Shown here in pieces: positions 1-14,124 of a stretch of 64,000 nucleotides of DNA. Each line of letters opens with the position of its first letter. The stretch's first letter is position 1. This DNA is from a virus. The notes beneath the pieces are model-generated. The model ran no database searches. It was not told where the DNA came from and worked only from the letters and a program-made list of their open reading frames with translations. A program made the position numbers and the translations under genes. The stretch covers positions 1 through 64,000 of the IMG/VR virus record IMGVR_UViG_3300048691_000181. One strand, given 5' to 3'.

Positions 1-485
1 AACAGAGAATCCAAGTCGGTTTCCTGAAGTGCTTCGTAGTCCAGTCCGATGAAAAGCGGTGGTTCGGTTTTCGGCGACTTGAACTGGAATTCGATAGCAT
101 CAGAAGTTTGCTGGCTTCCCCAGAGGCTCTCAACCAGAGAGTCAACCTCCGAATAAGAACGTGGCAGTTTCAGCTCGAATTCGACATCTTCAGTCGCATT
201 ATGCGCTGCAACTGCCATGTGCAACTTCCGAATTGAACCTTCGTGCATGTCAGAGAATCGCAAATCTTCTTCAGATAGAATCTGAAGCAATTGGTCGCAA
301 TTTGAAGCATCGAACTTCAAATTGACCAAAGGCGATTGAGCTTGGAGCTGTGGTCTTAAGCTTGGCAATGGCTCTGCTTTGTCGAGCAGGTTGAGGCAAG
401 CAAGTGTGCTTACCATGTTTTCAATTGCCATGTTCCAGAGCTTAAAGCTCGATGGAACAAGTGGCGTCATTTTTGCTGGCGTCAT
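1..485 (-). CDS. Unknown protein, N-terminal part (runs off the left edge)
   Basis: An open leftward frame of about 160 codons has no stop before the window edge. Three in-frame ATGs are possible starts, at 485, 470 and 431; the first two lie in a duplicated ATGACGCCA motif and overlap the end of the gene upstream, the last would leave a short gap. The N-terminus (SSFKLWNMAIENMVSTLACL) looks helical and the rest is mixed with many acidic residues. No family recognised. The segment 299-323, inside this gene, is a perfect 9-bp stem with a 7-nt loop. Confidence 0.6.
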   Translation of the reverse strand, partial: MTPAKMTPLVPSSFKLWNMAIENMVSTLACLNLLDKAEPLPSLRPQLQAQSPLVNLKFDASNCDQLLQILSEEDLRFSDMHEGSIRKLHMAVAAHNATEDVEFELKLPRSYSEVDSLVESLWGSQQTSDAIEFQFKSPKTEPPLFIGLDYEALQETDLDSL

Positions 486-819
486 TTTTTGCTTGATTTT
501 CAGTGTAACACATTCTCTTAACAAGCGAATACTCCCAATAAGGAGTAGCGGCCAAGAGCATTAATTTAAGGCTTTTAAGCCTCTTCTTATCTTCCCCTTC
601 TCTTAATGCGTACATCGCATTAAAGTAGCTTAGAAGAAAGAAAACACGGCTTCCTGTCCAATATAGCTGAAACAGAAGTAACAACATAGACTGAGAAGGT
701 CTATTCATTACTAAGGTTAAAGAAACTATATACACTGATAAGAGTATCAGTTGACACGTGGCGTGTTTTAGGGAAAGAGCTAAAACGTGGGAAGAGAGGA
801 TGGGCAAGAACTTAGCCAT
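442..819 (-). CDS. Small integral membrane protein, unknown function
   Basis: 125 residues starting MAKFLPIL. The start at 819 is chosen because the upstream gene stops with TGA at 823-821, one base before, which indicates translational coupling; a longer in-frame reading would overlap that gene extensively. Two strongly hydrophobic stretches (about residues 18-40 and 44-66) suggest a two- or three-pass membrane protein; the C-terminal tail carries a small duplication (AKNDASKNDA) from a DNA repeat that also lies at the start of the next gene. Stem-loops occur at 603-623 and 734-751. Function unknown; holin or host-membrane modifier are possible but unsupported. Confidence 0.6.
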   Translation of the reverse strand: MAKFLPILSSHVLALSLKHATCQLILLSVYIVSLTLVMNRPSQSMLLLLFQLYWTGSRVFFLLSYFNAMYALREGEDKKRLKSLKLMLLAATPYWEYSLVKRMCYTENQAKNDASKNDATCSIEL

Positions 820-820
820 A

Positions 821-1477
821 TCATGCTCCCTTTTGCCCAAATGAATGAAGGAAATCACACGCGATTTCATTGGCATAAGCCAAATATTCCCGCAAGATTT
901 TTCCTTCTCTGTAGTCCATGCCAACTCCAGCTTTAATCTTAACCGATGATTCAACATGCATACAATTTGTACGCTCGTTGAACTTCAAGTCAAAATTAAT
1001 TTGGGTTAGCCCAAACTTAGCGAACCAGCCTCCTCCGAGCTCAATACAGAGCTTCTTAGGAACATAGCTACCTCGTTTTTGGAGCCACATTTTACCCATG
1101 CCTGCTCGAATTGTCGTAGCAGCAGTGGGTGTGTTTTCGATGGCATTGATGAGGCATTGGGGAATATGCAGCCCTGTTTTGGAAGCTTGATTTCCATAGT
1201 CCCTCATTCTGCTGTGGAAGCAGAATTCCTTCCATAGGGTGATGAAATGTGCTTCATGAGGCACATTACATACAACAGTTGGATAGCCGACTTTCCAGTC
1301 GACTGGTTTCAGTTCCATCTTTTCGTAGTTGTGAGCTGAGCCTACGGGTTGCACCTCTCGCTGGTTGAAGGTACGAAATCCGTAGCGCATAGTTTCTGTT
1401 CCTTGAAATACTTCAAGTACATGGAATGCGCTTTGGCTCAGGTCGAACTGGTATTTACAGAGCTTTTCCATTGCCAT
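821..1477 (-). CDS. Unknown conserved-looking protein
   Basis: About 218 residues. The start is uncertain: ATGs at 1495, 1477 and 1471 are in frame and all lie inside the end of the L7/L12-like gene upstream, so the genes overlap by roughly 17-41 nt. The product is soluble, with a Lys/Arg-rich start, a Gly-rich stretch (CIELGGGWFAKFG) near residue 155 and a helical C-terminus (EYLAYANEIACDFLHSFG). No domain recognised. It sits in an apparent operon between the L12-like gene and a membrane protein gene. The sequence contains perfect stem-loops at 1246-1267 and a 12-bp palindrome at 1295-1306. Confidence 0.65.
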   Translation of the reverse strand: MAMEKLCKYQFDLSQSAFHVLEVFQGTETMRYGFRTFNQREVQPVGSAHNYEKMELKPVDWKVGYPTVVCNVPHEAHFITLWKEFCFHSRMRDYGNQASKTGLHIPQCLINAIENTPTAATTIRAGMGKMWLQKRGSYVPKKLCIELGGGWFAKFGLTQINFDLKFNERTNCMHVESSVKIKAGVGMDYREGKILREYLAYANEIACDFLHSFGQKGA

Positions 1478-1715
1478 TGCCCTTCTCTTTTTCAATTTTC
1501 ACAATCGCTCCATGCTCTTCAATAGCAGCCTTAATCTCTAAGGCTCTTTTTTTTGTAACATTTTTAGCAAGCGTGCCGCTACCTCCAAAGTATGGCATTA
1601 TTTCCTTGGCCTCTTTGAGGCCAATATCAAGCGTGAATTTAATTGCCTTGCAGCAACTAAGCTTATTTGGACCTTCGTCAACAAGGATGACGAGGCACTT
1701 AGGCGATTTATCCAT
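1455..1715 (-). CDS. Ribosomal protein L7/L12 C-terminal-domain homologue
   Basis: 86 residues that align by eye with the C-terminal domain of ribosomal stalk protein L7/L12: a first strand and helix VILVDEGPNKLSCCKAIKF, the signature GLKEAKEIM helix, then a lysine-rich helix and final strand EEHGAIVKIEKEKG. In bacteria this domain recruits translation GTPases (EF-G, EF-Tu, IF2). The N-terminal domain that dimerises and binds L10 is absent, so it cannot be an ordinary stalk subunit; a freestanding copy could occupy factors or replace host L12 tips. L7/L12-type proteins are known in some other phages. A perfect 8-bp hairpin lies at 1606-1624. Confidence 0.75.
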   Translation of the reverse strand: MDKSPKCLVILVDEGPNKLSCCKAIKFTLDIGLKEAKEIMPYFGGSGTLAKNVTKKRALEIKAAIEEHGAIVKIEKEKGNGNGKAL

Positions 1716-1718
1716 TTA

Positions 1719-2492
1719 TTAAGGTTTAGCCTCCGCTGGAGGCGGTTTTCCAATATAATCAATTGCCTGTATTCTCTCTAAATAAGACTTAGGCAATTGA
1801 AATCCGTCTTTCACTGCTCTCTTATGAGCAGCATTGATTGAAGCCCAATATTCTTCAGAGGGCTTCAACGGGTTATGTATGTCCTTATTCAACGACCATG
1901 AGGTCACATTAAAGAACATGATTCCTCCTTCTGGAATGACGTTTGGAATCCCTGCCGATTCTCCCAATTGAGGGAAAATCGAAGGTGTTTCTCGAACGTC
2001 ATTCTGTACTGCATGGAGCGGATGCCAGTTAGACAGCAACATATAGTGATTTCCCTCACCAGAGAAATCAGAATTGTTACAGCCTTCCTTCAGCATCAAT
2101 GGAGACCCAAAACGAAGTGCTATCTTTGGTATCGCAAAGACACCAATATAGCAAACGTCTGTTTCGTCTCCTTGTCTCAATGTAGCCTTTCCCTCTACGG
2201 TTGAGAATTCAAGGCTATCTGCCAACCAAGCCTTCTTCTGGAAGGAGAGTTTGACAAATGGAAACTTGTACCAACCGACAAAGTGTGAGCTGAACAGGTC
2301 TTCATTTGGAACGTCCATTCCAATTTCCTTAAAGGAAGGAGCTAAACGTTCGATGAAGTTTGAAGCTTTGAATAAAGCTCCATACGTGCCAATCAGCACA
2401 AAATCTTTAGCTGGATTGCCACGTCCAGCAAGATTATAGTCATTTGGCGCTAATTCAATTCGAGGAATTAAATCCTTATTGAATGGTTTCAT
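1719..2492 (-). CDS. Unknown soluble protein
   Basis: 257 residues, no recognised domain. The N-terminus contains RIELAPNDYNLAGRGNPAKD, the middle is rich in aromatic residues and the C-terminus has a Pro-rich tail (KPPPAEAKP). The start ATG at 2492 overlaps by one base the TAA of the small ORF upstream (TAATG), a coupling arrangement used repeatedly in this phage. The stop is three bases before the L12-like start. Stem-loops at 1729-1743 and 2364-2379. It is probably co-transcribed with its neighbours. Confidence 0.7.
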   Translation of the reverse strand: MKPFNKDLIPRIELAPNDYNLAGRGNPAKDFVLIGTYGALFKASNFIERLAPSFKEIGMDVPNEDLFSSHFVGWYKFPFVKLSFQKKAWLADSLEFSTVEGKATLRQGDETDVCYIGVFAIPKIALRFGSPLMLKEGCNNSDFSGEGNHYMLLSNWHPLHAVQNDVRETPSIFPQLGESAGIPNVIPEGGIMFFNVTSWSLNKDIHNPLKPSEEYWASINAAHKRAVKDGFQLPKSYLERIQAIDYIGKPPPAEAKP

Positions 2493-2647
2493 TAGTCGCC
2501 ATAGTTATGAAACGAAGACACTAATTCAGTTGTAACAACTGAAAATAGTGCTCCAATGAGCAAAGTTGCCTGTACCGCACTATAATAGCCAATTTGTGGC
2601 ATATTAAACTGCGGTACGTCTCTTGCAATTCCATTCCAAAATACCAT
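2492..2647 (-). CDS. Small membrane protein, start uncertain
   Basis: From ATG 2647 the frame gives 51 residues ending FHNYGD, with one hydrophobic segment (ATLLIGALFSVVTTELV). The frame stays open upstream to about 2750 and would add KIAKFAVRLVSTFLISPFLV, a second good membrane segment, but it contains no ATG; a 9-A run on the coding strand (about 2711-2719) could hide a frameshift or slippage site, or a rare start codon is used. The TAATG overlap with the next gene supports translation. Function unknown. Confidence 0.4.
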   Translation of the reverse strand: MVFWNGIARDVPQFNMPQIGYYSAVQATLLIGALFSVVTTELVSSFHNYGD

Positions 2648-2727
2648 TACCAAGAATGGTGAAATTAGGAATGTTGAAACTAAGCGAACTGCAAACTTTG
2701 CAATTTTTATTTTTTTTTGCTTTTCTA

Positions 2728-2973
2728 TTAGTACAGTAAAAATTTGTAGAACAATGCAACTTCTTCGATTCTATGACTTATTCCTTTTTTATTGCACCAG
2801 TCAAGGCACAAAGGGAGAAAGTGGCTTAGAATCAAAATAAAGAGCATTGTCCAAAGCTTTTGAATAACGTCTGCTTCATACCAGAGGAATATGACTAAGC
2901 TCAATAACCCTATCAGTGCTAAGAATATTAGGCTGATACTTATGGTTACGGCTTTTTCAATCAACGCAATCAT
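2728..2973 (-). CDS. Small two-pass membrane protein
   Basis: 81 residues with two long hydrophobic segments, about residues 9-31 (ISISLIFLALIGLLSLVIFL) and 39-58, and a basic C-terminal tail. It lies downstream of the TROVE-like gene and upstream of another small membrane ORF. No family recognised; size and topology would fit a holin or a membrane accessory protein, but nothing specific supports either. The 68-nt gap to the gene upstream holds a 7-bp stem-loop with an 8-nt loop at 3013-3034. Confidence 0.55.
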   Translation of the reverse strand: MIALIEKAVTISISLIFLALIGLLSLVIFLWYEADVIQKLWTMLFILILSHFLPLCLDWCNKKGISHRIEEVALFYKFLLY

Positions 2974-3041
2974 TCAATCCAAAGATTGATGTGTCTCTGG
3001 CGTAGGTATGTGTTCCAATTATTTTTCATTGGAAGTTTATT

Positions 3042-4559
3042 TTACTGGTTACGGAAAGACACAGTCGAATTTGTATCTCCTTTTTCCATTGGATTGGCTA
3101 TGCCATTTTGTTGGCATATCCATTCAAGGAAATAGTCGGAGTGACCGTGAATCCGTGTAAACATGGATTGAACCTCAGTCCCATATTTCTCGGCATGTGC
3201 CTGAACGTTCATAACGAACTGACGTTTACAAGCCGTAATAACGGGGAATTGAGTATCCCCTAACTTATTTGCTGAATCTCCTCTCCAAGAAACTTGGAGC
3301 CTGTTATCACATTCTTCTCCATCGCAGAAAAGAAAGATATTAGAAGCCGAATGGCTTGGATTGGACTTTATGTCCTTCTCAACTGTAGCAAAGAAGTCGT
3401 ACTCGAATATGCCTCCGCCTTGCAGCTTGTACTTTCTTTCGAGTTTATCTCCTGCATCCATTGAGAATATATTCTCAAATAATGCAAGTCTATCTTCTTC
3501 ATTGAGCTTTATGTGAAGCCCAATGTCTTTTCCATTATTTGGTGCACTTGTATCTCCAGAGAACCAAATTTCACATTCTTCGCACACCAGCGATAGCATA
3601 TATGCCATAAGTATAGCAGCATGCCTTCGCTCCATCCTTCCTCCTCCGCCAGAAGCGATTGGGTGCTTCATACTTCCAGACCAGTCAATTCCGATATGTG
3701 TCATGCCAGGAATCTTTTTAATTCCCTTGTGTGTGAACATATTGAATATCAGCTCTTGAAACAATGGAGCGAAAGAGCTATTGTTCACAGCATTAGCATT
3801 CAGCTCGGTTTTATAGAGAACCGTAGGTGGCATCAAGCCTTTCGGCATTTTTGCACGCAGGTTCTCTTCGAGCCATGCTCTATCTATGCCTAACTCATCG
3901 GCAAATGGCATCGAATTGATGTACGCGATTACATTCAATTCGATTAGCTCCATCTTGGCTTGGTCAATAGACAGAGCTTTGAATGCACTTGGCATCGAAG
4001 TGTTTCCCCAACGAGACAACGTCTCTAACTTCTCCCAGTTCACCTTTGACAGTTTACCGATTGAAGTTGCGCTGTTCGCTTTTGTATATGTTTCATATAC
4101 CTGTCTAAGTTGTGGAAGAACAGGTAAGGTAGGTTCGTCGAGCAGTATCGTATCGATGAGTGGTCTGACCGTGCTGGTCAAGGACATACCTACTACACGG
4201 AACTTCATGATATGCTCGAACAGTTTTTGAGCTTCACTTTCTTTCAGAAAGACAGAAGCCCAATGTATCGTATACATCAGTATTGGCTGATGTAGTAGGA
4301 GTTCAGGTACGAAGCTCGCCAATGCAGGCGTAGGCGCGTACTTGAAAACAATAACTATGTATGCCGCGATAGAACTTTGAAGCTTGGCCAATTGCATCAA
4401 ATTCTTTGCAGCGTCGTAATCGTCGTAGATTAAATCTACGTCATGAGATTGGCTCTTAATCAATGGCTCAATCTCGTTAACAACAACTTTTTGGACGAAG
4501 CTGTCATTTTCCTGCAATATGAATTGCGAGAAAATTCCAGCTAACGTTTTTTTTTTCAT
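3042..4559 (-). CDS. Ro60/TROVE-like RNA-binding protein with vWA domain (putative)
   Basis: 505 residues. The N-terminal ~270 residues are helical, as expected for a HEAT-repeat ring; a segment MPPTVLYKTELNANAV precedes a C-terminal von Willebrand A domain starting near residue 293 with the MIDAS motif DWSGS and a later FLFCDGEE strand typical of vWA folds. This order (helical ring, MPxTxL-type segment, vWA) is that of Ro60/TROVE proteins, which bind misfolded RNAs and Y RNAs. A phage Ro-like protein in the same arm as odd tRNA-like RNAs is suggestive. Alternative: an unrelated vWA protein with helical N-terminus. Contains an 18-bp palindrome at 3461-3478 and hairpins at 3099-3118 and 4424-4440. 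Confidence 0.5.
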   Translation of the reverse strand: MKKKTLAGIFSQFILQENDSFVQKVVVNEIEPLIKSQSHDVDLIYDDYDAAKNLMQLAKLQSSIAAYIVIVFKYAPTPALASFVPELLLHQPILMYTIHWASVFLKESEAQKLFEHIMKFRVVGMSLTSTVRPLIDTILLDEPTLPVLPQLRQVYETYTKANSATSIGKLSKVNWEKLETLSRWGNTSMPSAFKALSIDQAKMELIELNVIAYINSMPFADELGIDRAWLEENLRAKMPKGLMPPTVLYKTELNANAVNNSSFAPLFQELIFNMFTHKGIKKIPGMTHIGIDWSGSMKHPIASGGGGRMERRHAAILMAYMLSLVCEECEIWFSGDTSAPNNGKDIGLHIKLNEEDRLALFENIFSMDAGDKLERKYKLQGGGIFEYDFFATVEKDIKSNPSHSASNIFLFCDGEECDNRLQVSWRGDSANKLGDTQFPVITACKRQFVMNVQAHAEKYGTEVQSMFTRIHGHSDYFLEWICQQNGIANPMEKGDTNSTVSFRNQ

Positions 4560-4737
4560 AAATTACGGGTTAATGTGTTCCTGTTTAAGCATCTTTTTTA
4601 GAAATCGATATACTCTTTTGATTTGCAGTCAAGAGTCTATATATCGTATTCTTCATTAGGTCAGCTCGTGGTATGCTATGTGATATAGCGAATTAACGAG
4701 TCTGTTTCTTAAACAGGAACGAGTTTAAAACGACTTA
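4560..4737. other. Gene-free gap upstream of the TROVE-like gene
   Basis: No ORF supported. AT-rich, with the string TTCCTGTTT near 4576 and CTGTTTCTTAAACAG near 4711, so two stretches that can pair with each other or form a local hairpin. It probably carries the leader of the TROVE-like gene; I could not place a promoter. Confidence 0.4.
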
Positions 4738-4902
4738 CTATCTGTCCACTGGACAGTTAGCGCAACCGCCTGTTGCGCAATTTGACCCGCTACAACCGCC
4801 TTTGAAGGCAGTGCAAGTAGCAGGTTTTGGTCCAGTAGACCCTTCGACTTTATAAGTCGGAATTGAATTTGAAATGATTGGATTTTTCATACCAGTTGCC
4901 AT
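4738..4902 (-). CDS. Small cysteine-rich protein
   Basis: 54 residues from ATG 4902 to TAG 4740-4738. The C-terminal half carries five cysteines in 21 residues (pattern C-x6-C-x4-C-x4-C-x2-C) among Gly, Ser and Asn, beginning ATCTAFKGGC. There is no signal peptide. The spacing suggests a metal-binding or disulphide-rich mini-protein; Gly-rich Cys patterns are also seen in small maturation substrates. No partner enzyme is visible nearby. Function unknown. Confidence 0.55.
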   Translation of the reverse strand: MATGMKNPIISNSIPTYKVEGSTGPKPATCTAFKGGCSGSNCATGGCANCPVDR

Positions 4903-4957
4903 TTGAAATTGTTAATTTTGCCTTGTAGTAGAGCCCCTTTTTTGGAGGGCGCAGATG

Positions 4958-5137
4958 CTACTTAGCGAAAAAGAGTGAACAGGCGCGTGCCCATCCACTT
5001 GTTTCAGCGATTTTAACCGCAGCCTGAGCCGCAGTTAGGTCGCTACCCATTCCTACACTATTTGGCACTTGAGCCAAACGAAGAATGGATTCTCGTTGTT
5101 GTGCCACCTTTTCGAGGTTGGCTCTATGTTTTTCCAT
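4958..5137 (-). CDS. Small unknown protein
   Basis: 59 residues from ATG 5137, ending TAG. Begins MEKHRANLEKVAQQRESILR, a basic amphipathic helix, followed by GMGSDLTAAQAAVKIAETSG, a second helix, and a hydrophobic end. It lies between the exported OmpA-like gene and the Cys-rich gene in the same direction, so probably the same operon. No family recognised. Confidence 0.55.
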   Translation of the reverse strand: MEKHRANLEKVAQQRESILRLAQVPNSVGMGSDLTAAQAAVKIAETSGWARACSLFFAK

Positions 5138-5160
5138 TTGACAATCTCTATTTAGGTTTC

Positions 5161-6234
5161 TTAATAATTAAATATGTATGTTAAATATTGATCTGCTACG
5201 TTATAGCCCTGATAGGGTCTAATACGTGTCTGAATTCTTTCTGATCTGAAACCACTTTTCTTCAGAGCTTCAATACCGCAATCAATACGTGCTTGAGCTA
5301 TTTTCTGATTTTTTAGTTTCGTTCCAGTACTCGAACTTGCTCCAATGACGAGTACTTGAGCTGTCTTGGGAATCTTATCCACAAAGGATAAGATTCCGTC
5401 TAATTGCTCAAACGACAAATCTGAAGCTCCTGCTTTAAAATGCAGGGTTAGTGTTTCGGATTTAGCTTGTTTCTGAATTGGCGCTTCCTGTTTTTGCTGT
5501 TCAAGAACTTCAGTACGTTGAAAAACGCGTTGAATCTTGGAAAGCAAAAAGGAATCGTTTTTCCTCAACGGTTCTGTTTCTTGACGAACCAAATAGCTCG
5601 TCAATTGGACAATTGCTTGTCCAAAAACGCTGTCGTTCAATAGGCGGTCACGTGTTTCCTGAACGGAAAACACAGGAGCGGGTGCTTGAACGACGGGTGG
5701 TTTCGCTTGCCGCTGTTTTTTAAACAGCGGCAAGCGAACAAATACGCGTGGCGTAACCACGATGTCGTGTTTTCCGCGAATAGCATTGTCAAGCCCATCT
5801 GGAACCGCAATGTTGCGTTCCCCAGATAAACTAACACCTATAACGGTGTTAGCTTTGGTACGCCATTGGGCGCCCATTGCAACGTTTGCGTTTGCGGCTG
5901 CGTAACGGAATGGACGGGCTGTAATGGAGCCTTCTCCGAAGAGTTGGAACCGATTGCCCGTTTGAATTCTGGCTCCGATTTCACCGTATCCGTGGTCGCG
6001 TACAAAACTGCCGAGACGTAAAGCGCGATAAGCCACACCAGTAAAAACCCCGCCTGTGATGTTTGGGGTAATAGAAAAATCATAGCCCAAACGAAGGCCA
6101 ATTTCAGACCCCGCCTTTGCGGTCTCGAAATCAGTATAAGCGATGGGAGCTGCCAATCGCGTTTCAAGAGTGAGTTGAGCATTAGCGACAGTTGTTGTGG
6201 CTAAGATAGCCACAATTAAAAGAATCTGTTTCAT
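5161..6234 (-). CDS. Exported OmpA-like outer-membrane protein
   Basis: 357 residues. A Sec signal peptide (residues 1-19, cleavage after ANA before QLTLE) leads into a Gly/aromatic-rich beta-strand region (about 20-175), a Pro/Gln linker, and a C-terminal OmpA/MotB-like peptidoglycan-binding domain (about 250-350: LTLHFKAGASDLS ... VLVIGASSSTG ... ARIDCGIEALKKSG). This is the architecture of Bacteroidota outer-membrane porin-like OmpA proteins. In a phage it could remodel the infected cell surface, for example to block superinfection. A 17-bp perfect inverted repeat with a 3-nt loop (5702-5738) lies exactly at the barrel-linker junction, and an 8-bp hairpin at 5831-5852. Confidence 0.7.
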   Translation of the reverse strand: MKQILLIVAILATTTVANAQLTLETRLAAPIAYTDFETAKAGSEIGLRLGYDFSITPNITGGVFTGVAYRALRLGSFVRDHGYGEIGARIQTGNRFQLFGEGSITARPFRYAAANANVAMGAQWRTKANTVIGVSLSGERNIAVPDGLDNAIRGKHDIVVTPRVFVRLPLFKKQRQAKPPVVQAPAPVFSVQETRDRLLNDSVFGQAIVQLTSYLVRQETEPLRKNDSFLLSKIQRVFQRTEVLEQQKQEAPIQKQAKSETLTLHFKAGASDLSFEQLDGILSFVDKIPKTAQVLVIGASSSTGTKLKNQKIAQARIDCGIEALKKSGFRSERIQTRIRPYQGYNVADQYLTYIFNY

Positions 6235-6283
6235 AAAATCAAGTGTTTTTTGTGGCTTTCGCCGTTTATTTTTTTAATTAAGC

Positions 6284-7390: not shown

Positions 7391-7648
7391 TTATTTTATA
7401 GAGCCGTATTTGGCATTGAATGCCTTTATACGGTTACCAGATTCAATTGGCCCTAATTGAGCCAACTCTTCCTTAAACTCGTCCGACATACTGTCGGTTT
7501 CCGTTCGAGGGATTTGAACCCCGTAGGGTTCGAGCTGGAAGTCTTGGAGACAATTGTTCTCCAAGATAAAGTCCAGCAGCTCCGTTTCCCCTTTAGCTAA
7601 CTCTGCCAATATAGCATCTCTAACTAAAGGGCGTACAATCGCTCTCAT
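7391..7648 (-). CDS. Unknown small acidic protein
   Basis: 85 residues, starting MRAIVRPLVRDAILAELAKG and rich in Glu thereafter; predicted helical then extended (LEPYGVQIPRTETDSM). It ends 9 nt before the glucosaminidase gene, so it is probably co-transcribed. Two perfect hairpins fall inside it: 7516-7531 (6 bp) and 7543-7565 (8 bp, 7-nt loop). No family recognised. Confidence 0.6.
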   Translation of the reverse strand: MRAIVRPLVRDAILAELAKGETELLDFILENNCLQDFQLEPYGVQIPRTETDSMSDEFKEELAQLGPIESGNRIKAFNAKYGSIK

Positions 7649-7727
7649 GGGATTTGTTTTTATTCTAAGCTATTATTGTCTCTTTTCCATGTATATGGAT
7701 AGTTAGAGAATAATAATGGCTTAGGAG

Positions 7728-7976
7728 TTAGAAATTACGGAATGCCATTCCATCGAACTCGAAGAATAGGGCGCTAACCCATCCTGAATCCAATTTGACC
7801 ATTCCGTTTTGTTGAAGGACTTCAACAGGAAACTTAATAGGCTCCATCCCATTACCGACTTTGGTAAGGGTTGAAGCAGATAGTCTCCTGTTGAAGCCCG
7901 TTAATTCGACTGCCACAGGCTTATTCTTCTTTTCAGGAAGAATCGCCTTCGGCAGAATTGGATTAGCCATAACCAT
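7728..7976 (-). CDS. Unknown small protein
   Basis: 82 residues; an alternative start two codons in (MANPILPK, 7970) is equally good. Mixed beta-like composition (KPVAVELTGFNRRLSASTL, WVSALFFEFDGMAFRNF). No transmembrane segment or known motif. The gap to the gene downstream (7649-7727) can form a long imperfect hairpin in which CTAAGC near 7665 pairs with the region near 7720. Confidence 0.55.
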   Translation of the reverse strand: MVMANPILPKAILPEKKNKPVAVELTGFNRRLSASTLTKVGNGMEPIKFPVEVLQQNGMVKLDSGWVSALFFEFDGMAFRNF

Positions 7977-8030
7977 TTTTCAGTTGCGGTGGCAACGCCC
8001 CCTCGTTCAGAAGCTTCACTAACCTATTGA

Positions 8031-8086
8031 ATTCTTATACTACGTATAAGAATCAATATAAGGTACGTGCGTTATGCGTACCTTAT
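8031..8086. repeat. Two tandem perfect hairpins in an intergenic gap
   Basis: 8031-8040 pairs with 8044-8053 (10 bp, 3-nt loop) and 8058-8067 pairs with 8077-8086 (10 bp, 9-nt loop). They occupy the 168-nt gap between the leftward genes at 8145-8984 and 7728-7976. No T-run follows, so processing or mRNA-stability elements are as likely as terminators. Confidence 0.75.
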
Positions 8087-8144
8087 TATATGGTTACATT
8101 GAATTCTAAAACAAAGGGACGTTGCCTCATTTTGAGTAACGTTT

Positions 8145-8984
8145 CTAAATCCTCCGAATGCCATTTACCCGAACCCAAGAGATGGGCTGGGTTGGTTTTG
8201 AAGGGAGATACTTGACAATCAGACAGAATCCCTTATCAGGGAAACTGTAAAAAATGTAAGCAAATCCACCTTCCTCAATGGCGCTCATGTTCTCGAGCTC
8301 CACCAATGGGAGCTCTTTGCCCATGATTTCTAATTGAGCTCTCGAATCGGTCAAGAAACGAATACGAAGAGGCACTGAATCTGCGTTGTACGCCGTTTGT
8401 TCTTTTGGAACAAACGCATACTGTGCAGACACAGAATAGCCCGTTAGAATGAAAAGAAATGCCACTGTAAGTACTTTCAACCCCTTCTTAGGGGGTTTCA
8501 CCATCCATAATATAATTGTGATTAGCACCAATAGCAAAACTGGGAACCAGCTACCATGCGAAGTACCAGAAGGTACTTCTATGATGTGACCATCAGCTTG
8601 AGCATTAGCTGAAACAAATAGGCTCATAGCTAAAGCGCTAAGACCTATTTTTTTCAGGAACTTACTCTCATTAAACACACCATCGACAAATCCCACTACT
8701 GCAAACAAGCAGAGTGCAATCGTCAAAAATCCCATCATTCCAGTAGGGTCTGGATTAGGATGATGGACTGCTACAGTCTCTTGAGCCACAGCCAAGAATG
8801 GCATAGTTACAAGAGCCGAAATTGCCCTTGTTGTGTGGCACCCTTTGCCCAATGCCGAAAAGCAAAGGGTCATGAAAACTGCTCCTGCAATAATGGAGCA
8901 CGCTACGACTTCGGACATCGTAGCGAATAAAAGGCAGACTACTGCCATTCCGAGGGTGGCCAATTGGCCTGTTTGTTTTGTCAT
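8145..8984 (-). CDS. Multi-pass membrane protein, unknown
   Basis: 279 residues with about six hydrophobic segments (near 8-25, 27-45, 55-68, 83-102, 143-162, 168-188) and a C-terminal soluble part (residues ~190-279) ending in VRVNGIRRI. Several stretches resemble signal peptides internally (ALAMSLFVSANAQADG; LFILTGYSVSAQYAF), as if exported segments had been joined. Possible host-envelope function; no family recognised. The coding sequence holds perfect hairpins at 8295-8315 (7 bp), 8394-8416 (9 bp) and 8560-8579 (8 bp). Confidence 0.55.
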   Translation of the reverse strand: MTKQTGQLATLGMAVVCLLFATMSEVVACSIIAGAVFMTLCFSALGKGCHTTRAISALVTMPFLAVAQETVAVHHPNPDPTGMMGFLTIALCLFAVVGFVDGVFNESKFLKKIGLSALAMSLFVSANAQADGHIIEVPSGTSHGSWFPVLLLVLITIILWMVKPPKKGLKVLTVAFLFILTGYSVSAQYAFVPKEQTAYNADSVPLRIRFLTDSRAQLEIMGKELPLVELENMSAIEEGGFAYIFYSFPDKGFCLIVKYLPSKPTQPISWVRVNGIRRI

Positions 8985-9251
8985 TTTTAAAATGAAGTTT
9001 TTAAAGTAAAACTTAATCGGGGTAGTAGCCTAAGCCACTACCCCAGAAAAGAAACTTTGTTCTCAATCACAAGAACAGATTCAACCTCCTAACTGGAGCG
9101 AGGAACCTGTTTTTCTTTAGTCTAAGCGTACTTCTCTAACTTTCCGATACATTATAAGGGAGCATGAAAAGAAGTGCTTAGAAAGCAATTATTTTAAAAG
9201 GGAAAGGGAAGCTAATTCACAAATGAGAAAAGAACCCAATCCCTAATATTG
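8985..9251. other. Gene-free leader between tRNA region and membrane protein gene
   Basis: No ORF supported. A perfect 8-bp G/C-rich hairpin (9019-9026 with 9037-9044, 10-nt loop) lies just upstream of the leftward gene start at 8984 and may end tRNA-region transcripts or protect the mRNA 5' end. The rest shows no recognisable gene. Confidence 0.5.
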
Positions 9252-9343
9252 TCGCATGTTTGGGACTCGAACCCAAATCTTTTCTCTATTGAAGAAGAAC
9301 GTGTCACCTCCCTCTCTTATCAAGAGGCTACCACCGACATGCG
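9252..9343 (-). tRNA. tRNA-like gene with extra hairpin, anticodon unresolved
   Basis: 92 nt. Acceptor arms CGCATGT/ACATGCG pair perfectly, the T arm is TTGGG-TTCGAGT-CCCAA, and the discriminator is A. Between them are two candidate anticodon arms: CCTCT-loop-AGAGG (loop TGATAAG) close to the 5' side, and TTCTT-loop-GAGAA with the 8-nt loop CTTCAATA. With the second as anticodon arm, the first is an insertion in the D arm and the anticodon could be UCA (reads UGA). Neither reading is canonical. Could be a degenerate, decoy or suppressor tRNA. Confidence 0.55.
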
Positions 9344-9534
9344 TAAAACTCGTTCTGGAATCTAAACACAACAAAAAATTCAGAACCAGAACGAGGTATC
9401 TTTCTCTAAGGGCGGCTCATTATAATTCGAGAACCCGAAGAGAAATTCCTTAATTTAGAAGAAGCTAAAAAACCGTGTTCAAGAAATAAGATTATTTCTC
9501 AAACACGGAACCTAAGAACTTCATCTAAAACTTG

Positions 9535-9607
9535 TGGACAGTACGGGACTCGAACCCGTGTCTTATGGTTTTTATGCCATCCAGTTACCGCTACTTTACA
9601 ACTGCCC
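9535..9607 (-). tRNA. tRNA with 8-nt anticodon loop, identity unresolved
   Basis: 73 nt. Acceptor GGGCAGT/ACTGTCC (one G-U), discriminator A, T arm ACGGG-TTCGAGT-CCCGT perfect, Gln/Arg-like D loop (AAGTAGCGGTAA). The anticodon stem ATGG/CCAT encloses CATAAAAA, eight bases rather than seven, so the anticodon cannot be fixed: CAU and AAA are both readable. The same 8-nt loop recurs in a hairpin at 12342-12359. Confidence 0.7.
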
Positions 9608-9873
9608 AATTTGACTACTTTTTTTAAGGGAACATAGTCATACCCCACTAAATCTAAATCTAAATCTAATAAAATTTTTTGACCCGTAAAGGATTGAAAC
9701 CTTTAGCCGATAATAAACCCAGTGACCAACTCTTTGATTCCCCCTTGTTCCCGAAGGAAGCTCGTGGAATGCTCGAATGGTGTACTTTATTTCGGTATGC
9801 CTATATTGTTCTTTGCATGCCATTCAACCTTGCGGAAGAAAGCGAAAGTAATAAATATAGATAACGGGTACTG
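9608..9873. other. Gene-free spacer with tRNA-like remnant
   Basis: No supported ORF. On the minus strand AAAGG-TTTCAAT-CCTTT near 9680-9697 resembles a T arm, but no matching acceptor half is found within tRNA distance, so it may be a tRNA remnant. Nothing else recognised. Confidence 0.35.
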
Positions 9874-9946
9874 AGGAGAAGACGGGACTCGAACCCGTAT
9901 AACCTGACTTTCAAGTCAGGTGCTCTACTAATTGAGCTACTTCTCC
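9874..9946 (-). tRNA. tRNA-Phe-like (GAA) with even-numbered anticodon loop
   Basis: 73 nt with perfect acceptor (GGAGAAG/CTTCTCC), D arm GCTC/GAGC and T arm ACGGG/CCCGT. The anticodon arm is a perfect palindrome, CCTGAC-TTGAAA-GTCAGG: with a five-pair stem the loop is CTTGAAAG (8 nt), with six pairs TTGAAA (6 nt). GAA (Phe) is the most natural anticodon. Lies 8 nt downstream of the ArsR-type gene's stop on the same strand. Confidence 0.8.
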
Positions 9947-9954
9947 ACCTCGGA

Positions 9955-10260
9955 TTAACCGAGCAATTCACCAGCCAAACGGCTGATGCTATTGATACGT
10001 TCCTTGTCAATACTGTAATAAATAAACTTGCCTTGGCGTTCCGTAGCAACAACACCTGCACGACGTAAAATAGCGAGGTGTTGCGAAGTAACTGATTGTT
10101 CCAAACGGAGTTTGGTGTACAATTCATTAACTGCCATCTTTTCGTTTTCTTCTAACAGCTCGAGAATTTGCTGACGGACCTTGTGGTTCACAGCGCGAAG
10201 AACCAATAGCGCTTTACGGATGTTGGCGTAGTCTGCTACGCCTTTTTTAATATTTTTCAT
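9955..10260 (-). CDS. ArsR/SmtB-type winged-helix transcription repressor
   Basis: 101 residues with the ArsR fold: helices RKALLVLRAVNHKVRQQILE, then VNELYTKLRLEQSVTSQHLA with recognition helix TSQHLAILRRAGVV and wing ATERQGKFIYYSID. The ELCVC-type metal site of classical ArsR is absent (MAVNELYTKL), so metal sensing through it is unlikely. It is embedded in the tRNA cluster, between tRNA genes on both sides, and appears poor in the intragenic hairpins that mark its neighbours, which hints at separate acquisition. A plausible target is the 18-bp palindrome at 14543-14560, but this is inference. Confidence 0.8.
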   Translation of the reverse strand: MKNIKKGVADYANIRKALLVLRAVNHKVRQQILELLEENEKMAVNELYTKLRLEQSVTSQHLAILRRAGVVATERQGKFIYYSIDKERINSISRLAGELLG

Positions 10261-10301
10261 TTTTAAATGAAATTTAAGTCTTGAGACATTTCAAGACCAA
10301 G

Positions 10302-10374
10302 TGCGCCCTAAAGGAATCGAACCTTCTACCTCTTGCAAACCTAAGCAAGTGCTCTGCCATTGAGCTATGGACAC
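10302..10374 (-). tRNA. tRNA with 8-nt anticodon loop, identity unresolved
   Basis: 73 nt. D arm GCTC-AATGGCA-GAGC is canonical, T arm GAAGG-TTCGATT-CCTTT, acceptor GTGTCCA/AGGGCGC pairs with G-U pairs and one A-A at the base. The anticodon arm CTTGC/GCAAG is a perfect five-pair stem around TTAGGTTT, unambiguously eight bases. With U33 at loop position 2 the anticodon would be AGG (Pro-type) but base 37 would be U, which is abnormal. Confidence 0.75.
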
Positions 10375-11154
10375 AAAACCATCACGTAGAAACTAATCTA
10401 CGTCCCAGACGCTTCTCTTTGAGAAATCAAAGAGAAGCTGTTTAATCCGAGCATTTCAACTCGGTATCTAACTTTTTTATTACATCTTATCCAGAAGGTT
10501 AATTACGCCTCCTGAATAAGATGCTCACTCTCTTTACCAGTCTTTGCCAGAGATACTGGGATTCTACGTGCAATAGTAGGTAATACACTCCTTGCGGAGG
10601 AAAGGCTCCTTGCGGACACCAAGCACGAATAAGGAAAATCTATCCTTTAATAGCCCTGTTATTTAACAGGGAAATGTGGATTCGCACCACATTTAGAATC
10701 TTTCTACTCCAAGCCACTCCTATTCTATTAGATTGTTAGTGGTACTCGTAATTGGTACTTAATTTTTTAAGAGTGATTTAGCCGACCAATCAGCAAACCT
10801 TCACTCCGAGCCACTCTGTTTTTCAGTGGCAACTCTTCTTCGTAATCTCCTCTACTCCCATCTCCTCTAAACTCTACGCTTGCAATCGTAAAGAATAAAG
10901 TTGAATCAGCCTCTCGGCAATTAGAGAATCCTTCCCAGTCTCTCTCTGGGCTTCTTTCCGTTGCGTATACTACGGGTCATTTGTGGTTTAAGGCTTGAAG
11001 TTTTACCACAATTCGTTGGACTATGATTGTCCATAGCACCCTGCTTTCACCCTGCAGGTCGAGGCTCGATTGGTCGCCCTTGAATTAGGGCGAGCCTCTA
11101 ATATTTAATTTCATTAAATTGAATATTATTCTCACCAACATTGGTGAGACAAAG
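10375..11154 (-). ncRNA. 780-nt gene-free, hairpin-dense region; candidate structured RNA(s)
   Basis: No ORF of note. Perfect stem-loops follow one another: 10411-10438 (10 bp, 8-nt loop), 10447-10464 (5 bp, 8-nt loop), 10483-10523 (8 bp with inner CAG/CTG), 10537-10559 (5 bp), 10654-10671 (8 bp, 2-nt loop), 10672-10694 (8 bp, 7-nt loop resembling a T arm with loop TGCGAAT), 10934-10950 (5 bp), 11061-11098 (nested stems) and 11131-11148 (8 bp). A short direct repeat CTCCTTGCGGA occurs twice near 10588 and 10606. Flanked by tRNAs on the same strand. It may be one or several structured RNAs, tRNA debris or decoys; orientation is assumed from the neighbours. Confidence 0.45.
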
Positions 11155-11227
11155 TGGTAGTGAAAGGACTCGAACCCTCTTTCCCCTTCGTTTTATAACG
11201 AAGCGCTCACCCATGAGCTACACTACC
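11155..11227 (-). tRNA. tRNA with 8-nt anticodon loop, identity unresolved
   Basis: 73 nt. Acceptor GGTAGTG/CACTACC is perfect with discriminator A; D arm GCTC-ATGGGT-GAGC; anticodon stem CTTCG/CGAAG perfect around TTATAAAA (8 nt). The T arm pairs best as AGAGG/CCTTT with loop GTTCGAGT, which is also eight bases, one more than normal. ATA or UAU could be read as the anticodon; neither is secure. Confidence 0.75.
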
Positions 11228-11244
11228 TTATCCTTAATGCCGTA

Positions 11245-11922
11245 TCAATGAATCAATACGGCATTAAGGTCAATTGCTGCCCATAATTTAGACCCGACAG
11301 CAAGGTCTCTTTCCTTAATGACTATATCTCTGAAAGAATAATAGTCATTAAGGTTTTTAACTTGGAACGCAAATGCATAGAGTAGCATCTGCGCCAGTAA
11401 ATCCTCGGGTAAGATAAAACCCGAGAAGTATTTGTTCTCCACACGTGACGCTTTGGCATATTTGCCTTCAAAGTCATAGTGGCCTGCATTTGAGTATCTG
11501 TTCGCAACACATTGTTGCACATCAGATACTATATTCAAATGGATAGACCCAGAAGAGTCTATCTTGCATTGCCTCAACTGACGTGTGAAGCGTACGACCG
11601 AGGACACGAAGTCACTCGGTTTCAGTGTGGGAAATAGCTGGACAAGTTCCAGCTCTCTCCCGACATAGGGATGAGTAGTATAACGGCTATGCTTAAAGCC
11701 GTTATATACGTGAAGTTTGGAGTGGTAATTGGTATCCACTCGGGTTTCTTCCCCGAATTTATACTCCAGCTCAATTCCAACCTTGTCGATGCCCTTGAAC
11801 AAGAGCCTGAAACAGGCATACATGGAAGGACTCCATGATGCCTGATTCAAACCCTTACCCAAACCGCGAAACAGGGCAGCTATAAGCCACCCCATTTCGC
11901 GGGTTTTGTATTTTGTTCCCAT
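11245..11922 (-). CDS. Possible amidoligase-like protein
   Basis: 225 residues. KVGIELEYKFGEE near residue 47 resembles the first glutamate-bearing strand of amidoligase/GCS-like enzymes (GxExE), and CKIDSSGSIHLNIV near residue 117 resembles their later (D/G)xSxxxHxH strand; the expected second His is replaced by Asn. Such enzymes make amide bonds to amino groups of peptides or proteins. The match is weak and could be chance. The gene is unusually rich in perfect hairpins: 11404-11425, 11542-11563, 11636-11654 and 11680-11705. Its start overlaps the stop of the upstream gene by one base. Confidence 0.5.
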   Translation of the reverse strand: MGTKYKTREMGWLIAALFRGLGKGLNQASWSPSMYACFRLLFKGIDKVGIELEYKFGEETRVDTNYHSKLHVYNGFKHSRYTTHPYVGRELELVQLFPTLKPSDFVSSVVRFTRQLRQCKIDSSGSIHLNIVSDVQQCVANRYSNAGHYDFEGKYAKASRVENKYFSGFILPEDLLAQMLLYAFAFQVKNLNDYYSFRDIVIKERDLAVGSKLWAAIDLNAVLIH

Positions 11923-12269
11923 TAGAAAAGCAATGGAAATTTGTTTTTAATCTTCTGCTCCTCCGTAGAAGGAAGAGCGTTGAAGATTGAACGAAAATTG
12001 CTCGCATTCCAATTTGAGCAGCTTTGGGGATTGATACCGCCCTCTGCCAATTCGGACAGGATGCAGAATAGTCCGCCTGTTTTGCAGGCGCGCTCCCAAT
12101 CGATACTGGGAATGTTAGTTGATTTGATAACGGTTTCAGCAACGGGGACAACTGGTACAACAGGAGCCGTCATAAGGGAAGCCAACATAGCCTTCCCTTC
12201 TTTCGTTGTGAGCTTCAATCCAGCAGCTCGTACAGCAGCCTTAGCTGCTTCGTTTGTCAATCCAGTCAT
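11922..12269 (-). CDS. Unknown protein
   Basis: 115 residues. The N-terminal 30 residues (TNEAAKAAVRAAGLKLTTKEGKAML) look like a small helical domain, followed by a Val/Pro linker (APVVPVVPVAE) and a second part with CKTGGLFCILSELAEGG. The stop is coupled with the next gene by a one-base overlap. Hairpins at 12074-12090 and 12174-12199. No family recognised. Confidence 0.6.
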   Translation of the reverse strand: MTGLTNEAAKAAVRAAGLKLTTKEGKAMLASLMTAPVVPVVPVAETVIKSTNIPSIDWERACKTGGLFCILSELAEGGINPQSCSNWNASNFRSIFNALPSTEEQKIKNKFPLLF

Positions 12270-12524
12270 TGTTAGATGAGTTTTATGGATTCATGAGCAT
12301 GCAATATCGCAGCTCACTTATTCTTGACCACGCAGAACAACTATGTTTTTTATGACATAACCCGCGTGGCAATTTCTTAGTCAGTCTCTTCAGCTATGGT
12401 AGACTAATTCCATAGGACAGCACGAAGGCTGTTTCGACTTTAACCGATAAAGAAATAAAAACTGGGGCTATCTAACGATACAGACAACCCCAGAACAAAA
12501 AATTTATTTCTTAACCAACTCATG
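12270..12524. other. Gene-free gap with stem-loops
   Basis: No ORF supported. 12328-12333 pairs with 12364-12369 (CCACGC/GCGTGG) and encloses TATGT/ACATA (12342-12346 with 12355-12359) whose 8-nt loop, read on the minus strand, is CATAAAAA, identical to the anticodon loop of the tRNA at 9535-9607. Another hairpin, CTATGG/CCATAG, lies near 12396-12417. May include a truncated tRNA-like minihelix. Confidence 0.45.
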
Positions 12525-12595
12525 CGAAGGGAATAGGACTCGAACCCTACTCTAACAGGACTAAACCTGTCGCGCACCCATTGCACTTCCCCTTC
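12525..12595 (-). tRNA. tRNA with abnormal anticodon loop, identity unresolved
   Basis: 71 nt. Acceptor GAAGGGG/TCCCTTC pairs (one G-U), D arm GTGC-AATGGGT-GCGC. Anticodon arm ACAGG-TTTAGT-CCTGT has a six-base loop, or an eight-base loop GTTTAGTC if the inner pair is opened. T arm GTAGG/CCTAT encloses an eight-base loop GTTCGAGT. UAG, UUA or AGU can be read as anticodon; none is canonical. Confidence 0.65.
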
Positions 12596-12705
12596 CTACT
12601 TAACATTGCACGGATTAATGACCGTGCTCAATTTGCCAATTCCGTTTCACTCCATTTGCCAATGAACGTGTGTTGCTAACCCTGCAACAAGGTTTCAAAA
12701 GAGAA

Positions 12706-12909
12706 CTACAATTGGCTCTCTACCGTCTCCACACTTAACATAACCGAAGCGGTTACGCCATTGTGGAGAAAAGTTCCCCAATAATGGGGCATGAAATCGT
12801 CACTTCCCAATCCGAAAACATCGCTGCCTTCTTCCTTGGTGCACTTAGTAGATAAATCTACGAGTGCAAGGGTTTTTACCCCAAAGTGGTTAAAATACAC
12901 TTTTTTCAT
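12706..12909 (-). CDS. Small unknown protein
   Basis: 67 residues beginning MKKVYFNHFGVKTLALVDLS, with an alternating hydrophobic pattern suggesting beta strands (GVTASVMLSVETVES). It lies between two tRNA-type genes on the same strand. A strong stem-loop is encoded at 12841-12867 (GCACT/AGTGC enclosing GTAGAT/ATCTAC). The gap downstream has hairpins 12608-12627 (6 bp, 8-nt loop) and 12671-12689 (6 bp, 7-nt loop). No family recognised. Confidence 0.5.
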   Translation of the reverse strand: MKKVYFNHFGVKTLALVDLSTKCTKEEGSDVFGLGSDDFMPHYWGTFLHNGVTASVMLSVETVESQL

Positions 12910-12910
12910 G

Positions 12911-12984
12911 ACAAGAACAAAGGAATCGAACCTTCATGCTTAGAATTTACCTTACGTTCACTCCTCATTACGAGGCTTACTTGT
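12911..12984 (-). tRNA. Degenerate tRNA-like element
   Basis: 74 nt. Acceptor halves ACAAGTA/TTCTTGT pair with one T-T mismatch, the D arm is CCTC-GTAAT-GAGG and the T arm GAAGG-TTCGATT-CCTTT, but one extra base separates T arm and acceptor and no clean anticodon stem is seen (the best is GAA/TTC around an 11-nt loop). It is either a decayed tRNA or another unusual one. Confidence 0.4.
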
Positions 12985-13422
12985 AAGTGCTAAACACCCT
13001 ACCCAATGTAGGATTCTTGTTGTCTTATTGGCTGTTAAAAAATAAGATAATGTCTTAATCAGAGCTAACCAACACTCACTCTGATTAAGAACACTAAATT
13101 CACTCATTCTATACACCCTGTCAAATGACGTTATCTTGACAGACAGGCATGTACACGGTTGAGGGAAACCGTTATTTTTTTTAGCTTTAAATTTTGACCG
13201 TTCAAAAGAACACGCTTTGAGCCTAACAAACTGTTTTACTTCGCTCAAACGAAGAATCGTACACGCCAAGAAGCATACAATTGAAAACAATAATAAAATA
13301 AAAAAGAATTGGTTGCACATACAACAATAATTATTGCATGTGCAAACAATTGAACGGCTTTTTAAGGCATATTTGAGGTACAAATATTGCTATTTATACC
13401 TCAAAATACCTTAAACTTTTTC
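12985..13422. other. Gap without a convincing gene
   Basis: A leftward frame of 141 codons (12958-13383) spans most of this gap, with one hydrophobic stretch, but it overlaps the tRNA-like element, has an unlikely composition (many Cys, low-complexity start) and resembles no protein, so it is not called. AT-rich sequence near 13380-13400 would fit a promoter region for the genes to the left. No clear hairpin or promoter box was placed. Confidence 0.35.
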
Positions 13423-14124
13423 CTAAAAATCGAAACCGATTTTATAGGAAGATTTTACGATGTCTGTGGCGTTGTTTGATAACCACAGTCCGTTTGCCAC
13501 TGCAAACTTGCTGTCAAGTACGCTACCAATTTCGGCGGAGGCTAAAAAGCCAGCCGTAAACTTTACGGCTTGTGTTTGGTCTTCAAATCTCTTTGTTGGA
13601 GCAATGCCAATATTGAACGCAACCTCCTTTGAAGTTCCTTTAGCATCAACAAGATGCCCTTTTACCCCGTAACACAGGGTTGTGCTTGGCAAACTTGTTG
13701 CGTTACCAGCAAATTCCTTGCTAAAGATTCGAGTAACGAAAAGTTTTCCGCCTTTTATAGCATTAATAATACTGGTCTCTAATGCTAATCGGTCACTCAT
13801 TTTCCAAATTCCATTTTCCATTACGTAGCCTAATGAGGCTATCGTTGAATCAAACGAGATTCCACCTTTAGCGGTGAAATTGCTAAATGGAACAGACGCC
13901 AATGAAACAGCTAATGCTGTTACGGCTTTGAGTGTTTCAGCGTTCCGCGTAGCGATTGGTGTTGCACCAACCTGAGTAGCAGGAAATTCTACACTATTAC
14001 GCGTATATACATCTTCCAAATCCGCATCTTGCGACAATGTGAAATATGTTTCAAGTTTAGTGTTTGGTTCTTGGATGTTTGCATCCGTTAAGGCTTTAAT
14101 AGCCTTGCCTTTGGTAAGTGTCAT
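13423..14124 (-). CDS. Unknown protein, first gene of the leftward arm
   Basis: 233 residues from ATG 14124 (MTLTKGKAIKALTDANIQEP). An upstream in-frame ATG at 14268 is rejected because the extra 48 residues are basic, unstructured and lie in the control region. Composition alternates beta-like and Gly/Ala/Thr-rich segments, with a conserved-looking centre (GGKLFVTRIFSKEF; LCYGVKGHLVDAKG). No domain recognised. It is the first gene after a leftward promoter-like box at 14266-14273. Perfect inverted repeats at 13552-13570 and 13906-13921 fall in the coding sequence. Confidence 0.65.
   Translation of the reverse strand: MTLTKGKAIKALTDANIQEPNTKLETYFTLSQDADLEDVYTRNSVEFPATQVGATPIATRNAETLKAVTALAVSLASVPFSNFTAKGGISFDSTIASLGYVMENGIWKMSDRLALETSIINAIKGGKLFVTRIFSKEFAGNATSLPSTTLCYGVKGHLVDAKGTSKEVAFNIGIAPTKRFEDQTQAVKFTAGFLASAEIGSVLDSKFAVANGLWLSNNATDIVKSSYKIGFDF

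Follow-up and report, generated by a model that had tools for sequence, protein, structure and literature searches.

Small hairpins crowd one transcription arm of a crAss-like phage and point to structure in its sense transcripts

The first 64,000 bases of the 106,963-base virus record IMGVR_UViG_3300048691_000181 (the window, throughout) raise the question of why one of the two gene arms of a phage should be crowded with small perfect stem-loops, and whether these belong to its RNA, to its DNA or to the way in which it mutates. A first-pass annotation of the window had listed 21 such hairpins in leftward genes and had noticed no similar density in rightward ones. Counting as a hairpin every perfect inverted repeat with a stem of at least 7 bp and a loop of 3–10 nt, we found 62 in positions 1–14300 (4.3 per kb) and 36 in the 49.7 kb from 14300 to 64000, where 0.7 per kb is the chance level. 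The leftward arm, 42.6 kb in all, runs from 14.3 kb down to position 1 of the window and then from 107 down to 78.7 kb of the record; it holds 149 hairpins, 102 of them in open reading frames (ORFs), at 4.8 per kb outside ORFs vs 3.1 per kb inside. The leftward density is therefore real and larger than first noted, since 42 of the 62 hairpins had been missed and the excess spans the whole arm. The regions compared were the following.

1–14300, minus strand: leftward arm, window part (presumed early/middle), with 62 hairpins; it goes on at record 107–78.7 kb
14300–14680, no strand assigned: divergent junction of the arms and presumed leftward transcription start region
14680–64000, plus strand: rightward arm (chaperonin, terminase, capsid, muzzle), the control arm, without overall hairpin excess

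Shuffling of ORFs with protein and codon usage preserved, a check that the first-pass annotation had proposed, separated the two arms. The 45 leftward ORFs contain 101 stems vs a shuffled mean of 22.9 (4.4-fold, z 16; at most 34 in 100 shuffles), and longer stems are enriched as well (at least 8 bp, 51 vs 6.6; at least 10 bp, 10 vs 0.6). The 36 rightward ORFs gave 32 stems vs 34.7 (0.9-fold), with a small excess restricted to the longest stems (at least 10 bp, 4 vs 0.8). When dinucleotides were fixed as well, the leftward count was 100 vs 33.7 (3.0-fold; maximum 50 in 200 shuffles) and the rightward one 35 vs 44.4; codon or dinucleotide composition as the cause was rejected by these shuffles. 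Counted outward from the junction, the leftward arm has a 4.7- to 6.0-fold excess in its first 32 kb and a 2.3-fold one in its last 11 kb, the site of the core replication genes; nine of the 45 leftward ORFs lack any such stem.

Folding with RNAfold gave sense-strand z values below -2 in 41 of the 45 leftward and 10 of the 36 rightward ORFs, and antisense values below -2 in 36 and 8 of them, respectively. Per 120 nt, leftward ORFs fold 5.8 kcal/mol (sense) and 4.7 kcal/mol (antisense) below their shuffles, and rightward ORFs 0.8 and 1.0 kcal/mol below. Folding more stable than protein- and codon-preserving shuffles is a property shared with genome-scale ordered RNA structure (GORS). GORS typically has long-range as well as local pairing; the excess observed here is local, fading with loop length and confined to loops below about 50–70 nt, so that long-range pairing of the GORS type was not found.

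The hairpins are encoded mostly by silent codon choice. Pairs of non-synonymous positions are about as frequent near each other as at a distance in two codon registers (ratios 1.00 and 1.07) and moderately more frequent in the third (1.35), and for full stems the enrichment of near over distant is 4.4- to 7.5-fold. The hairpins therefore derive mostly from silent choices. Pairing dips at the start codons of both arms relative to the flanking sequence, a pattern known from ordinary mRNA.

Recognizable element types did not account for the set. Intrinsic terminators were rejected, as a U run follows the stem in only 2 of the 149 hairpins. Regular spacing was likewise rejected, the spacing being random (coefficient of variation 0.97, Poisson-like through genes), and simple counts revealed no common stem, loop or tetraloop sequence among the leftward hairpins. 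Hairpin promoters of the N4 type are few, have one common sequence and 3-nt loops, and sit where transcription starts; the 149 hairpins, 102 of them in ORFs, have all loop sizes and no common sequence. Loop lengths over the leftward arm form a broad plateau at 5–9 nt, and a supposed preference for loops of 7–8 nt was not borne out (12 of the 62 hairpins in window 1–14300, with no peak at these lengths). Twenty of the 21 hairpins first listed were recovered in place, the last (6581–6620) being a composite visible by eye; three stems proved one base pair longer and one a base pair shorter. The ArsR gene, which had seemed exempt, carries a hairpin that gives it average density. The individual hairpins of the window discussed here, all on the minus strand, are as follows.

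298–324, minus: hairpin of 10 bp, loop 7; 1 bp longer than first annotated
603–623, minus: hairpin of 8 bp, loop 5
1206–1226, minus: hairpin of 8 bp, loop 5; newly found
1246–1267, minus: hairpin of 7 bp, loop 8
1606–1624, minus: hairpin of 8 bp, loop 3
4273–4294, minus: hairpin of 8 bp, loop 6; newly found
5369–5397, minus: hairpin of 12 bp, loop 5, within ORF 5161–6234; absent from the first-pass list
5702–5738, minus: longest hairpin, 17 bp, loop 3, within ORF 5161–6234
5831–5852, minus: hairpin of 8 bp, loop 6
6195–6215, minus: hairpin of 9 bp, loop 3; newly found
6581–6620, minus: composite hairpin, 10 bp plus inner 5 bp, by eye
7542–7566, minus: hairpin of 9 bp, loop 7; 1 bp longer than first annotated
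8031–8053, minus: hairpin of 10 bp, loop 3, between listed ORFs
8394–8416, minus: hairpin of 9 bp, loop 5
10225–10242, minus: hairpin of 7 bp, loop 4, within the ArsR-like ORF 9955–10260
10411–10438, minus: hairpin of 12 bp, loop 4, in the tRNA region
11232–11269, minus: hairpin of 14 bp, loop 10
11679–11706, minus: hairpin of 10 bp, loop 8; 1 bp longer than first annotated
13552–13570, minus: hairpin of 8 bp, loop 3; 1 bp shorter than first annotated

Stems with a single mismatch carry information on the molecule concerned: G opposite T on the transcript strand still pairs in RNA (as G-U), and the mirror mismatch A-C does not. With expectations taken from distant pairs, leftward stems of 7 positions showed 112 G-U vs 47.9 expected (2.3-fold) and 66 A-C vs 54.2 (1.2-fold), and stems of 8 positions 68 G-U vs 17.9 and 32 A-C vs 19.4. 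The remaining mismatch types lay at 0.7–1.6 times expectation (7 positions) and 0.65–1.9 times (8 positions), T-T being the highest. In the rightward arm the counts were 89 vs 77.4 for G-U and 79 vs 86.9 for A-C. Because mismatch windows overlap inside one hairpin, these counts lack independence; with one count per hairpin, the leftward arm has 14 G-U vs 3.5 expected and 6 A-C vs 3.2. Since G-U is tolerated more than A-C, RNA is favoured over single-stranded DNA structure. The folding gain is greater for sense than for antisense in 33 of the 45 leftward ORFs (p 2e-5); a slight sense bias is general, since 24 of the 34 rightward ORFs shorter than 1200 aa share it (p 0.004). The signal points to RNA structure of the sense transcript. 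The first-pass suggestion of selection for RNA or single-stranded DNA structure thus stands for RNA, on the G-U tolerance, the sense energies and the compensatory changes described next, and does not stand for single-stranded DNA, A-C being much less enriched.

Covariation among relatives, a check that had also been proposed, could be followed in the early arms of Buchavirus and not in the analysed phage, which has no alignable relatives. IMG/VR scans with three left-arm and two late proteins found no close or alignable relative, the nearest match being a capsid at 53–56% identity; the IMG/VR contig L005, with 2 mismatches over 22.5 kb, represents the analysed phage itself. Window DNA 1–14000 and 3042–8984 and one left-arm protein likewise found no useful relatives in the phage collection, and 6 of the 45 early proteins had a tblastn match (E 1e-5) among 21 phage records compared. 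Across five aligned Buchavirus early arms, both sides of a pair had changed to another Watson-Crick pair in 18.4% of changed stem pairs vs 6.0% in the control, which consisted of distant complementary stretches of equal length; in the late arms of these phages the figures were 5.4% near vs 5.2% distant. Single changes in the early arms ended as G-U and A-C in a ratio of 158:80 near and 189:211 in the control. As these pooled counts reuse related sequences, p-values are quoted for one direction of species-disjoint pairs. With each change counted once in this way, 19 of 80 changed early pairs were double Watson-Crick changes vs 6.4% in the control (p 2e-5), and 2 of 67 late ones vs 4.3%. Within annotated coding sequences (CDS) only, the compensatory changes were 18 of 73 vs 21 of 275 (p 2e-4); because the signal persists there, the transfer-messenger RNA (tmRNA) of the Buchavirus early arm is not its cause. 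Compensatory evolution in the Buchavirus early arm is three to four times the control and absent from the late arm. We also observed covarying Buchavirus hairpins with conserved 8-nt loops like UUUGRUCG, at about 10771–10792 and 12541–12562 of the cr60_1 record (L033), the latter in the annotated tmRNA.

Together with the excess itself, its confinement to the leftward arm, the encoding chiefly by synonymous codons and the G-U signature of the sense strand, all of them computed observations, this compensatory evolution leaves selection for RNA-level structure, in the form of numerous local hairpins on early transcripts, well supported.

The wider family was compared through 20 crAss-like genomes in which both strands were measurable, the early strand being taken as the one opposite the terminase. 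G003 and G007 (one usable strand) and 65 of 80 IMG/VR loci, mostly short contigs, were left out. The ratio of observed to shuffled stems was higher on the early than on the late strand in 18 of the 20. The strongest early ratios after the analysed phage were those of cr60_1 (2.9) and G002 (2.5), the latter being its nearest relative, in which 12.6 kb were measured. Early arms of six Buchavirus/Blohavirus phages (cr60_1, cr113_1, cr52_1, cr109_1, cr56_1, cr53_1) reached 2.4–3.3 times the shuffled level; this group resembles the analysed phage in having an arm-specific excess, there with compensatory evolution, and differs in its size (4.4-fold in the analysed phage). The 19 other genomes pooled gave 603 early stems vs 407 (1.48-fold) and 1077 late stems vs 878 (1.23-fold). 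Their early ratio declines away from the divergent junction (1.69, 1.59, 1.56, 1.28, 1.16), in an analysis that treated incomplete contigs as circular.

The analysed phage itself is crAss-like (Crassvirales), as judged from its terminase, capsid and muzzle proteins, its divergent arms and a giant, presumed RNA polymerase with a DxDxD motif. The terminase is 27.8% identical to that of phi14:2. The capsid protein matched crAss phages, its best matches being Flavobacterium FpV-type phages, and the muzzle protein matched Pfam crAss_MUZ at 6e-50. The record ends overlap, the final 60 bases repeating window 91–150 with one base extra (by eye), and the genome is therefore probably circular. The rightward arm (14.7–78.6 kb) encodes a phage chaperonin, the terminase, the capsid, the muzzle protein and a giant ORF. 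The leftward arm encodes a DnaB-like helicase (89138–90148), a primase-like protein (85773–87038), an exonuclease VIII-like protein (82202–83341), an ArsR-type regulator and a glucosaminidase. The terminase match regions of the nearest relatives G002 and G003 (L137–L143) read TGA internally, four times and seven plus one times, respectively; unlike these, that of the analysed phage contains none.

55136–64000, plus strand: giant ORF, first part; the full ORF lies at record 55136–74119 (6327 aa)

A DYDVD motif in the distal part of this giant ORF is collinear with DFDID in gp66, the RNA polymerase of phi14:2, the overall match not being significant, and the ORF presumably contains a virion RNA polymerase. 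In crAss phages the virion polymerase is reported to make the early transcripts (a review and a genome study, PMC10136315 and PMC7886860), and the review attributes early and middle transcripts to it and late genes likely to the host polymerase. By analogy, the hairpin-rich arm would therefore be made by the injected polymerase, and we infer that it is the early arm. A full explanation, in which the leftward arm, presumably early/middle and made by the virion polymerase, is selected for small hairpins in its sense transcript, is somewhat favoured. As to purpose, a link to the virion polymerase through release and protection of the transcript is our leading guess, offered tentatively. The hairpins, being small and fast-folding, would form as the RNA exits the polymerase; the folded transcript would be kept from re-pairing with the template, and the hairpins would shield it against nucleases. 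Late genes transcribed by the host polymerase would have no such need.

The N4 phage (Schitoviridae) offers a parallel. On single-stranded templates its virion polymerase produces RNA:DNA hybrids, from which the host single-stranded DNA-binding protein strips the transcript, and its early promoters are hairpins on the DNA template strand (both PMC4496689). In N4, as presumed for the analysed phage, early genes are transcribed by an injected phage polymerase, and early ORFs are also stem-rich (10 stems vs 2.1; annotated early CDS, 12 vs 3.2), and the annotated early CDS of its relative G7C gave 10 vs 3.3. Unlike the promoters described there, the stems of the analysed phage are many and RNA-level. 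Taken together, six N4-like phages have 43 stems vs about 13.8 (3.1-fold) in their early ORFs, VBP32 having no early value as no early boundary was set; the rest of the N4-like genomes showed 1.4–3.4-fold on the plus strand and 1.0–2.3-fold on the minus strand. Lambda showed 1.1-fold, and T4, SPO1 and B40-8 1.5–1.9-fold. In T7 (L224–L225) the early region had 1 stem vs 1.5 and the rest of the plus strand 3 vs 11.3, below the shuffle expectation. Both strands of T4 stand at 1.48, although we take only the minus strand to be early; with these and with T7 early genes at chance, an effect of being an early gene alone was rejected.

Several observations weigh against selection of early transcripts in connection with the virion polymerase. 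On the RNA side, T-T mismatches are raised too (21 vs 10.9 expected), the G-U excess is smaller when counted once per hairpin and the rightward arm shows some of it (G-U 11 vs 5.2; A-C 6 vs 5.6), and in leftward ORFs antisense folding comes close to sense folding (mean z -4.4 vs -5.4). The covariation evidence comes from the Buchavirus group, the analysed phage having no alignable relative; in species-disjoint pairs of that group the G-U:A-C ratio of 18:14 vs 84:110 is not significant (p 0.18), and in cr60_1 alone A-C is more enriched than G-U (2.16 vs 1.53). On the side of the polymerase, that of the analysed phage rests on a motif and weak collinear matches, and the assignment of early and late is inferred from strand. 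Early coding excess is absent from phi14:2 (39 vs 41.0, 0.95), whose virion polymerase is the tested one, as well as from crAss001 (28 vs 25.4, 1.10) and cr118_1 (37 vs 36.6, 1.01). In four of the 18 genomes (cr125_1, G005, G012, G014) early and late are nearly tied, and the pooled early ratio of 1.48 is modest, being no higher than those of T4, SPO1 and B40-8. Among the N4-like phages, PD38 (5 vs 3.6, 1.4-fold) and JWAlpha (2 vs 1.6, 1.2-fold) have little early excess, the Silicibacter phage DSS3phi2 (L208–L211) has an excess outside the early region too (plus 3.4-fold, minus 2.3-fold), and two N4 relatives gave no compensatory signal, with low power.

The same RNA-level selection might serve another purpose, such as protection from host RNases or RNA-targeting immunity (e.g., Cas13, which is common in Bacteroidota) or tuning of early translation, and we regard this as possible, though less than probable. 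The RNA-level evidence fits it equally well, and reduced structure near start codons is as expected for translated mRNA; however, the hairpins have no common motif and no regular spacing, and late mRNAs meet the same RNases and ribosomes yet lack the excess.

Template-switch mutation during replication, perfecting quasi-palindromes of one arm with little or no selection, had been raised by the first-pass annotation; it is not needed and now appears improbable. Perfect stems do dominate, and the longest in the window reach 12–17 bp, as such a process would give. However, decay of its products predicts all mismatches, whereas G-U stands out, followed by T-T (1.6–1.9-fold) and A-C (1.2–1.65-fold); since mismatches other than G-U are largely missing, such decay is not supported. 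Neither strand-neutral mismatch decay nor a lack of compensatory excess was found: among relatives, compensating changes come in pairs and are limited to the early arm. Mainly synonymous sites are used, although purifying selection could produce the same, and restriction to one arm would require an additional assumption.

Slightly more improbable still is a role at the DNA level, with cruciforms or single-strand hairpins acting as binding or promoter sites, as in N4, or in replication. The template-strand promoters of N4 (PMC4496689, as cited) offer a precedent, and cr60_1 tolerates both A-C and G-U. From a DNA role one would expect no bias of G-U over A-C, however, and this bias is present in the analysed phage and in pooled Buchavirus (sequences not independent); 149 Poisson-spread hairpins without a common sequence are moreover unlike promoters. 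An ordinary background of terminators, tRNA genes and base composition is the least likely explanation, for although mild excesses are common (as in T4, SPO1 and B40-8) and the tRNA cluster adds some stems, the leftward excess persists with composition, codons, protein and even dinucleotides fixed, U runs are rare and the rightward arm lies at 0.9-fold.

Further RNA elements, several of them putative, lie in the window. Minus-strand tRNA-like genes lie at 9873–9946, 10301–10374, 11154–11227 and 12525–12595, with further tRNA-like sequence at 9533–9608; in this set (9533–12597) the anticodon loops are of 8 nt by our own reading if the stem is 5 bp, and in three members predicted folds allow the outer bases of the loop to pair as well. 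ARAGORN gave four-letter anticodons for three of the tRNA-like genes (tgaa, aggt, ataa). Possible roles of eight-nucleotide anticodon loops are the decoding of four-base codons or escape from anticodon nucleases (PMC10264068). Two longer minus-strand sequences with a T-loop motif (9248–9345 and 12910–13022) received no tRNA call by ARAGORN or Rfam, and a Pistol ribozyme (Rfam RF02679, 54 bits) lies at 13193–13254 on the minus strand. On the plus strand, a tRNA-like sequence at 20607–20660 appears to have a 9-bp anticodon stem and an 8-nt loop, and long hairpins outside ORFs at 26069–26103 (14 bp), 35571–35603 (12 bp) and 39899–39926 (10 bp) may be terminators or sites of processing.

RNA viruses are known to carry widespread selected RNA structure. 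Among the papers listed, covered by titles, starts of abstracts and some passages and with most subscription journals outside, we found no description of such a hairpin-rich phage arm. GORS, to which PMC6563262 refers, also shows pervasive internal pairing across coding sequence with no single conserved element; the present case differs in concerning a DNA phage, one transcription arm only and short local hairpins. Synonymous choice that differs between early and late genes of one phage has likewise been described (PMC5683454, in the portion on codon usage); that comparison concerns codon usage, whereas here usage is fixed and codon order still yields hairpins. The kind of phenomenon, selected RNA structure in coding sequence, is known; what is unusual is that it keeps to a single transcription arm in a DNA phage, and no tested known element explains it.

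The confinement of the hairpins to one transcription arm makes the other arm a built-in control, and suggests that synonymous codon choice is linked to which polymerase makes the message. It is conceivable, though distinctly less than probable and a shade more tentative than the link to the virion polymerase in the analysed phage, that early transcripts of Crassvirales, perhaps also of other phages that inject a polymerase, carry chains of hairpins since that polymerase cannot part the RNA from its template. A hairpin excess could mark early genes in uncultured crAss-like phages and, if this explanation is true, the codons of one genome arm would carry a layer of information imposed by the polymerase.

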